64,000 nucleotides of DNA, from NCBI RefSeq assembly GCF_001723605.1, contig NZ_CP017111.1, positions 2,914,001 through 2,978,000 of the forward strand, read 5' to 3'. A program made the position numbers and the translations under genes. This DNA comes from Sulfurospirillum halorespirans DSM 13726. Its GTDB lineage: Bacteria; Campylobacterota; Campylobacteria; Campylobacterales; Sulfurospirillaceae. The notes below the pieces were generated by a model. That model had not been told where the DNA came from. It did no database searches and saw nothing but the letters and a program-made list of their open reading frames with translations. Shown one piece after another: positions 24,566 to 26,631 of this stretch (positions within the stretch are counted from its first letter, which is position 1; each line of letters starts with the position of its first letter).

Positions 24566-24590
24566 ATTTTATTACTAATAAAGGATGCCT

Positions 24591-25877
24591 ATGAGTAAAG
24601 AGACCGTTACCCTTATCGACAATCGTACGGGCACAGAGTATGAATTTCCGATCCTTAAGTCAACACTAGGACCTGATGTTGTAGATATTTCTACCTTCTA
24701 TGGTAACACAGGAATGTTTACGCTTGATCGCGGCTTTACCTCTACGGCAAGCTGTAGGTCACGTATTACCTACATTGATGGGGATCTTGGAAAGTTGATG
24801 TATCGTGGCTACGACATCGCCTACTTGGCAACTAAAAAGTCGTTTTTAGATACCGCTTTTTTACTTTTACACAAAGAACTCCCGAGCAAAGATGAGTACA
24901 AAAACTTTTTGATGGAACTTAAAAAGCGCTCCTTTATTCATGAAAGTATGCGCAAACTCTTCGATGCGTTTCCTGATAATGCGCATCCAATGGCGATTTT
25001 ATCGGCTGCAGTTTCAGCGCTTTCAACCTTTTATTTCGATCACCTCGATATGGACTCACCAGAGCAAGCCAAAGAGATGGCGCACCGCATCATTGCAAAA
25101 ATACCAACGATTGCCGCCTTTTCATACCGCTACTCTCAGGGCTTACCGATCATCTATCCTGACTTAGACAAAGGGTTTACAGAGAATTTTTTATACATGA
25201 TCAGAGGCTATCCTCATCACCATATTGACCTCAAACCGATCGAAGTCAAAGCACTCGACACCATCTTTACCCTGCATGCAGACCACGAGCAAAATGCTTC
25301 TACAACAGCGGTTCGTGTCGTTGCCTCCACCCATGCACATCCGTATGCGGCTATTTCAGCGGGTATTGGTGCACTTTGGGGAAGGGCTCATGGAGGAGCA
25401 AACGAGTCGGTGATTCGTCAGCTTGAACTCATTGGCAGTGTTGAGAATGTGGATAAATTTATTGAAAAAGCAAAAGATCCAAATGATCCGTTTAGACTGA
25501 TGGGCTTTGGTCACAGGGTCTATAAAAACTTCGACCCACGTGCAACGATTTTGAAAAATCTTCAAAAACAGTTGGTCAATGATCTTTCGATTGATAGCGA
25601 ATTGATGGAAGTCGCACACCGAATTGAAGAGATTGCGCTCAATGATGAGTATTTCATTAAACGTAAACTCTACCCCAATATCGACTTCTATTCAGGGCTT
25701 ATTTTGCAAGCGCTTAAAATCCCTAAAGATATGTTTGCCGTTATCTTCGTGATTGGTCGAACGCCTGGGTGGATTGCGCAATGGCTTGAGCTAAAAGAAC
25801 AACCCGACATGAAGATTGCACGCCCGCGCCAACACTACCTTGGACCGCTTGAGCGTACGCCTAAATACGATATATAA
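24591..25877 (+). CDS. gltA: Citrate synthase
   Basis: The enzyme condenses oxaloacetate and acetyl-CoA at the entry to the TCA cycle. I chose ATG 24591 (MSKETVTLID) rather than 24585 because AAGGA would be only one base from the latter. The 428-residue protein has TYIDGDLGKLMYRGYDIAYL, the active-site region ALWGRAHGGANE and GFGHRVYKNFDPRA, including the catalytic His and Asp of type II hexameric citrate synthase. It is a single gene with its own probable promoter. It is convergent with the AMIN-domain gene and shares a palindrome-based terminator with it. Confidence 0.97.
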   Translation: MSKETVTLIDNRTGTEYEFPILKSTLGPDVVDISTFYGNTGMFTLDRGFTSTASCRSRITYIDGDLGKLMYRGYDIAYLATKKSFLDTAFLLLHKELPSKDEYKNFLMELKKRSFIHESMRKLFDAFPDNAHPMAILSAAVSALSTFYFDHLDMDSPEQAKEMAHRIIAKIPTIAAFSYRYSQGLPIIYPDLDKGFTENFLYMIRGYPHHHIDLKPIEVKALDTIFTLHADHEQNASTTAVRVVASTHAHPYAAISAGIGALWGRAHGGANESVIRQLELIGSVENVDKFIEKAKDPNDPFRLMGFGHRVYKNFDPRATILKNLQKQLVNDLSIDSELMEVAHRIEEIALNDEYFIKRKLYPNIDFYSGLILQALKIPKDMFAVIFVIGRTPGWIAQWLELKEQPDMKIARPRQHYLGPLERTPKYDI

Positions 25878-25883
25878 CACCGT

Positions 25884-25913
25884 TTACATGTAAGGATTTT
25901 CCCTTACATGTAA
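25884..25913. terminator. Bidirectional terminator made of two facing TTACATGTAA palindromes
   Basis: Two perfect palindrome copies (25884-25893 and 25904-25913) flank GGATTTTCCC. Since TTTACATGTAAGG is the inverted complement of CCTTACATGTAAA, the pair folds into a roughly 13-bp hairpin. It lies exactly between convergent gltA and the AMIN gene and has CCCTTTT after it on one strand. An equivalent structure is at 60665-60694. Confidence 0.8.
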
Positions 25914-25923
25914 AACCCTTTTC

Positions 25924-26631
25924 CTACTTCAATTTAACAATATACCCACCATTAAACGCTTGCAAATCATAACGATAATGCCCATCGAGTAAGAGTGCAA
26001 TACGGTAAAATCCATCATGACTACCTAACGTTGCAGAGACAAAAGGTGCTTTGTTAAACTCTAAGCTTTTCGTTCCGTACGCATTCACTTTTTTAAAATC
26101 GATCACAACCTTGTAAGGATCAGCAATGAGAAAATCTCGGATTTTACTCTCTTTGGTAAAAATAGTAATCTCGTTTTGATTGATAAAAAAGGAGAGATCT
26201 TCATTTAACTTAAAGGCGTTACTTGCGTTTGCATTAGCCGTTGAGGAGGGTTTTTCCTCTTTGAGAATCGGTGCGGGTGGAAGATCTTTTTTCTCAATTG
26301 GTAGTGGTGTTACAACAGGGACACTCGGTATAGGCGCATTGGTTTCTGTTTTTTGACTTAACATAAGTGGTAAATGCCAATCAACATTCTGATCAATTGC
26401 AACAATCTCTTCGCTGATAGATCCGTCTAAATTTTGAAACGTTACAGAAGCACTTTTTAAAATACGTGCGCTGCTTGGAAGGGTTAGCGTGGTGCTTTTA
26501 AAGTCGGTTAATTCGTCTTTAATTTGTGTGGTTTTCCCCACCGTTTGCGGAGACATACTTGTCTCAAAAGGATTTTCTCTCGCCTCTAATATCACTGCAA
26601 GAGATAGAAAAAGCCAAAGAATCTTCTGCAT
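25924..26631 (-). CDS. AMIN-domain periplasmic protein
   Basis: The 235-residue product has an N-terminal signal peptide (MQKILWLFLSLAVILEA), a low-complexity Pro/Lys-rich middle (about 105-140), and a C-terminal AMIN domain of about 95 residues (DLSFFINQNEITIFTK, then DPYKVVIDFKKVNAYG, ending GGYIVKLK). AMIN domains target proteins to peptidoglycan, septa or secretin complexes. It lies downstream of the FtsB-like gene, an order common in Campylobacterota, which suggests a role at the cell envelope or division site. No catalytic domain is visible. Confidence 0.82.
   Translation of the reverse strand: MQKILWLFLSLAVILEARENPFETSMSPQTVGKTTQIKDELTDFKSTTLTLPSSARILKSASVTFQNLDGSISEEIVAIDQNVDWHLPLMLSQKTETNAPIPSVPVVTPLPIEKKDLPPAPILKEEKPSSTANANASNAFKLNEDLSFFINQNEITIFTKESKIRDFLIADPYKVVIDFKKVNAYGTKSLEFNKAPFVSATLGSHDGFYRIALLLDGHYRYDLQAFNGGYIVKLK

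Follow-up and report, generated by a model that had tools for sequence, protein, structure and literature searches.

What do two identical copies of a 10-bp palindrome do when they lie next to each other between the ends of two convergent genes? The question is raised by the junction between gltA, encoding citrate synthase, and an AMIN-domain gene in a window that covers the whole 64,000-nucleotide stretch analysed, corresponding to positions 2914001-2978000 in a closed genome of 3.03 Mb. As read from the sequence, positions 25884-25913 are exactly TTACATGTAA-GGATTTTCCC-TTACATGTAA. The two stop codons (25877 for gltA and 25924 for the AMIN gene) leave a gap of 46 bp containing this element, with the first palindrome 6 bp past the gltA stop and the second ending 10 bp short of the AMIN-gene stop (Table 1). 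The gltA start at 24591 was used here; the mechanical list of open reading frames has an earlier start at 24585.

Table 1. Features of the gltA/AMIN junction and of the second paired element, in window coordinates
Feature	Position	Strand	Evidence or remark
gltA, citrate synthase	24591..25877	+	PF00285, E 4e-133 (Pfam); orthologues in 24/24 genus genomes
Hairpin 5' arm TTTACATGTAAGG, holding the first TTACATGTAA (25884-25893)	25883..25895	+	Sequence and RNA fold
Hairpin loop ATTTTC	25896..25901	.	RNA fold
Hairpin 3' arm CCTTACATGTAAA, holding the second TTACATGTAA (25904-25913)	25902..25914	+	Sequence and RNA fold
Weak T-rich tail on the gltA strand, AACCCTTTTCC, with T-run 25919-25922	25915..25925	+	Sequence; T-rich tails recur in orthologues
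AMIN-domain gene, convergent with gltA	25924..26595	-	PF11741, E 3e-10 (Pfam); gene call
Second paired element, TTACATGTAA-GGATTTTTCC-TTACATGTAA	60665..60694	.	Convergent junction; orthologues behave alike

RNA folding of the gltA side gives a 13-bp stem and a 6-nt loop at -16.8 kcal/mol (z -7.6, with shuffles at -3.7 +/- 1.7), and the opposite strand folds with the same stem and loop lengths at -16.7 kcal/mol. The sequence-only reading had proposed that the two palindromes form one longer hairpin exactly at a convergent junction, and both the fold, on either strand, and the position in the intergenic gap bear this out. It had also described the palindromes as facing each other; the paired copies are there, but their orientation is uninformative because the 10-mer is self-complementary. 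Any two nearby copies of a sequence identical to its reverse complement, such as TTACATGTAA, make an inverted repeat, and it is therefore the length of the spacer and its GG..CC complementarity that carry the information.

The palindrome itself is very abundant. It occurs 1496 times in the 3.03-Mb genome, compared to 4 occurrences of the reversed control, and 35 copies lie in the window. About 1,400 of the genomic copies are unpaired; the copies are mainly single and within genes, with flanks that are mildly T-rich at +4 to +9. Among 8-bp palindromes that contain G or C, AAGCGCTT ranks next in the window, with 14 copies. A search of the open-access literature for TTACATGTAA as a repeat, and for uptake sequences or palindromic repeats of Sulfurospirillum, returned nothing relevant, although absence from that literature is no proof of novelty. 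An undescribed palindrome of some 1,500 copies calls for an explanation.

Close pairs are far more frequent than the density of the palindrome would predict. Sixty-six pairs with a spacer of 1-30 nt are found in the genome (control, 0), with a sharp mode at 9-12 nt, and spacers of 8-13 nt account for 33 pairs against 4.4 expected from density. Within this 8-13 class, the spacer ends are complementary to each other over 1.76 bp, versus 0.78 bp in shuffled halves (0/5000 shuffles as high), whereas the spacer ends of longer-spacer pairs in this genome show no complementarity beyond that of shuffled halves. The orientation of the spacer, with a U-rich loop along the direction of transcription, was 20 versus 12, numbers too small for a bias, and near-pairs with mismatches are rare (1/84 convergent junctions). 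The 8-13 peak is present in 32/32 family genomes tested (573 pairs versus 61 expected), and spacers of 14-43 nt in the same genomes show a 1.8-fold excess (554 versus 307 expected); because these genomes are related, their counts are not independent and a P value should not be taken literally.

The position of the pairs relative to genes was examined by pattern searches and by retrieval of about 5 kb on each side of all pairs of this genome, with genes called by a simple dicodon gene caller; relatives in Sulfurospirillum and other Campylobacterales were found by DNA pattern, and their pairs were pooled with those of the own genome. Among the resulting 132 distinct pairs with spacers of 8-13 nt, 66 are convergent and 43 co-directional; 18 lie in genes and 5 are divergent. 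Half of the pairs thus fall in convergent gaps, which account for only about 0.8% of the DNA, a base fraction that is approximate because the relatives' loci were chosen for holding pairs, a bias that opposes the conclusion. The co-directional pairs lie at a median of 8 bp past the upstream stop and 87 bp ahead of the next gene, and 41/43 of them are nearer the upstream stop, as against 32/53 single copies. About a fifth of the close pairs of this genome (6/33) fall inside genes according to the ad hoc gene caller. The sequence-only reading had made itself dependent on paired copies being commoner at convergent junctions than elsewhere, and they are indeed concentrated there and right after stop codons. 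That a common palindrome under relaxed constraint merely happens to fall in short intergenic gaps is hardly credible. Intergenic positions are enriched among single copies too (82/270, versus 7% of the DNA), as such an explanation would have it, but divergent gaps, which comprise more DNA than convergent ones, contain very few of the pairs, and both the spacer-length peak and the covariation described below contradict it. At two other convergent junctions (L147:6813 and L184:3026), a single TTACATGTAA stands at the tip of the longer palindromes CCCTTGCCTTACATGTAAGGCAAGGG and GGGCATTTACATGTAAACGCCC, followed by TTTT; to judge from the sequence, this is a second route from TTACATGTAA to a terminator-like hairpin.

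The hairpin 3' of gltA is kept in 24/24 genomes of the genus. Among 21 distinct sequences, 7 stem pairs have changed on both sides, a level of covariation above that of 500/500 shuffles (0/500 as high) and above all slid controls. In G028, a genome with 238 motif copies, the gltA site reads CTTTGCATGTAA..TTACATGCAAAG, in which the palindromes are gone and the stem is perfect, and in G020, with 49 motif copies, the sole exact pair with a spacer of 8-13 nt is the one at gltA. Together with G033 of the same genus, these genomes have only 49-238 motif copies, an apparent loss of the motif in which the paired hairpins persist. The altered arms might be dialect forms of the motif, an explanation that was rejected for G020 and G028, where TTACAGGTAA and TTGCATGTAA are scarce (1 and 2 per 100 kb); since these variants are not abundant there, the altered arms represent compensating changes. 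G021 carries TGACATGTAA as often as TTACATGTAA, and the altered arm there may be a dialect form.

At the second paired element of the window, where two genes again converge, the picture in most relatives retaining the junction resembles that at gltA; one relative has a single copy, and another, G025, has an unrelated hairpin in place of the pair, followed by TTTT. Here, 5 stem pairs have changed on both sides (1/500 shuffles as high), and the site in G020 reads TTTACAGGTAAGAT..ATCTTACCTGTAAA, again a perfect stem from which the palindromes are gone. Because the palindromes have been lost, the stem has remained perfect, and the altered 10-mer is not abundant, we can conclude that selection keeps the base pairing, and not the 10-mer, at both junctions. 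A stem upheld by base pairing in relatives is what an intrinsic terminator should possess, and both the gltA and the second junction possess it. In one relative (G017, L274), the second junction is interrupted right past the gene end by new sequence, which holds an open reading frame starting MKIEIDVEQFAQDIK that we take to be, probably, a transposase.

A comparable arrangement recurs in another family of the order (f17). Outside the home family, hundreds of copies are found in only two of the sampled genomes of the order, G139 (367) and G161 (340), both of which belong to this family; the sampled congeners of G161 have 0-10 copies, which suggests that the factor maintaining the motif was gained or transferred rapidly. 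G139 has 23 pairs, every one with a spacer of at most 13 nt, and the 22 examined comprise 10 convergent pairs, 11 co-directional ones at 4-18 bp past a stop, and 1 in a gene call. These spacers bear on the possibility that the pair acts in DNA, with a dimeric protein (a nucleoid protein, gyrase, or a regulator) binding at two sites spaced by about two turns of the helix, in the manner of the REP/BIME elements. The centre-to-centre distance of 20-22 bp in the present genus does correspond to about two turns; in G139, however, the spacers span 3 to 13 nt without phasing, which argues against helical phasing of a bound protein. Moreover, the spacers are self-complementary and the stems covary while the binding palindromes are lost, so that we regard a DNA-level role as very unlikely.

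The REP/BIME elements of enterobacteria are palindromic repeats at gene 3' ends that occur in pairs and can protect mRNA ends. Their REP units are imperfect palindromes of 20-40 nt spread by RAYT transposases, unlike the present 10-bp unit, which is shorter and perfect and whose copies are mostly single and intragenic. HIP1, the highly iterated palindrome of cyanobacteria, is very abundant, short, perfect, and genome-wide, as is TTACATGTAA, but has another sequence and occurs in another group of organisms. To our knowledge, terminator-like pairing has not been described for HIP1.

How such a hairpin might end a transcript depends in part on its tails. Past the second 10-mer, the gltA element continues with AAACCCTTTTCC on the plus strand and with AAACGGTGTTATA on the minus strand. 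The plus tail runs A-A-C-C-C and then four Ts, so that the T-tract starts 6 nt beyond the second palindrome, and T occupies 4/6 of the positions +4..+9 beyond the 10-mer on the gltA strand and 3/6 on the other, where the tail is poor. The T-rich flanks noted from the sequence alone are thus weakly present, mainly on the gltA strand, the opposite strand being almost without a T-tract. A consensus scan did not call the gltA/AMIN element a terminator. T is more frequent in the tails of convergent pairs than in those of lone copies between genes (3.0/6 versus 2.35/6, P 4e-5), whereas among 53 co-directional pairs the downstream T-tail is no richer than the upstream A-tract, leaving no directional bias.

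As expected of an intrinsic terminator, the stable 13-bp hairpin follows right after the stop codon of gltA. In the proposed mechanism, TTTACATGTAAGG would pair with CCTTACATGTAAA in the RNA just past the gltA stop and mark the 3' end of the gltA mRNA, acting as an intrinsic-type terminator whose stem is long and A/U-rich and whose U-tail is weak; the antisense transcript could fold too and might serve the AMIN gene, though less well. Alternatively, Rho could stop transcription further on and exonucleases trim the RNA back to the hairpin, which would then protect the mRNA end, much as the ends left by Rho in E. coli are trimmed by 3'-5' exonucleases (PMC7815308). The position after the stop and the covariation of base pairs fit such a stabiliser equally well, and a U-tail devoid of directionality fits it also; it is a live but less likely alternative, given that half of the pairs occupy convergent junctions, the places with the greatest need for termination and with an enrichment of T-tails, and given the TTTT tail that follows the replacement hairpin at the second site of G025. 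The element is probably a transcript 3'-end hairpin made from two TTACATGTAA copies and working as an intrinsic-type terminator, and its most likely action is to halt RNA polymerase, beyond stabilising an end made by Rho. From the claim of a bidirectional terminator, a terminator-like 3'-end hairpin emerges well supported by location and covariation, whereas strictly intrinsic, bidirectional termination is less certain, given the weak plus tail, the poor minus tail, and the lack of a directional T-tail.

The terminator reading is compatible with a further proposal, namely that TTACATGTAA serves Sulfurospirillum and its relatives as a DNA uptake sequence whose pairs double as terminators, as in Neisseria and Haemophilus; this adds a claim on the single copies. 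The copy number and density (1496 in 3 Mb) resemble those of known uptake sequences, the anatomy and location of the pairs match those in Neisseria, with termination predicted, and ComEC is encoded in 41/44 family genomes. In addition, stretches of low GC are weakly depleted of TTACATGTAA (rho 0.53, P 0.017, 20 stretches), a weak indication, as such a depletion would be expected of uptake sequences and equally of other vertically maintained motifs. On the other hand, TTACATGTAA is palindromic and the uptake sequences of Neisseria and Haemophilus are not, the hairpins outlast the motif in low-copy genomes, and the presence of ComEC is independent of copy number. ComEC was accordingly discarded as a marker of the motif, being present almost everywhere. 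On this balance, an uptake role is a serious candidate that falls somewhat short of probable. The sequence-only reading had held that pairing strengthens the uptake idea, which is a weak inference, as any abundant repeat could be recruited in this way; with hairpins retained in genomes that have lost the motif, and ComEC occurring irrespective of copy number, the uptake idea gains little. Some close relatives without the motif keep the hairpins by compensating mutations, so that the transcript-end function is separable from the genome-wide role of the motif, which makes co-option directly testable. A more specific scenario, possible but tentative, is that TTACATGTAA is an undescribed palindromic uptake sequence, or another genome-identity sequence, repeatedly gained and lost in Campylobacterota, whose paired copies would have been recruited as transcript-ending hairpins and later left as fossils in the lineages from which the signal itself disappeared.

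The nearest known parallels are the terminators formed by the Neisseria DUS and Haemophilus USS, in which the hairpin is likewise built from two copies of a repeat that numbers about 1,000-2,000, the stems are long, and the tail Ts are few (PMC1852404). Tail-to-tail enrichment is shared as well, with 94/231 hairpins in N. meningitidis (Kingsford et al. 2007, PMC1852404) and 66/132 pairs here. By our own estimate, an exact pair occupies roughly a tenth of the convergent junctions, compared to 94 hairpins per 268 tail-to-tail regions in N. meningitidis. Unlike DUS and USS, TTACATGTAA is a perfect palindrome, any two copies of which pair, and it belongs to a different phylum; moreover, the Neisseria terminators show a directional T-tail bias (PMC1852404), which co-directional TTACATGTAA pairs lack. 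The paired hairpin appears to be a new case of an abundant genomic repeat being reused by bacteria at transcript ends. Recruitment of this kind is known in Neisseria and Pasteurellaceae, and the present case would add the Campylobacterota and a motif that is palindromic.

Two minor observations concern the distribution of short palindromes. The region of this genome at 60001-80000 (L302) has 31% GC, a weak coding signal, and few TTACATGTAA copies, and is probably foreign DNA. In G010, from another genus of the family (L238-L242), ATCATGAT occurs at 26 per 100 kb, well over what composition would give, and may represent another abundant palindrome, built around a CATG core.
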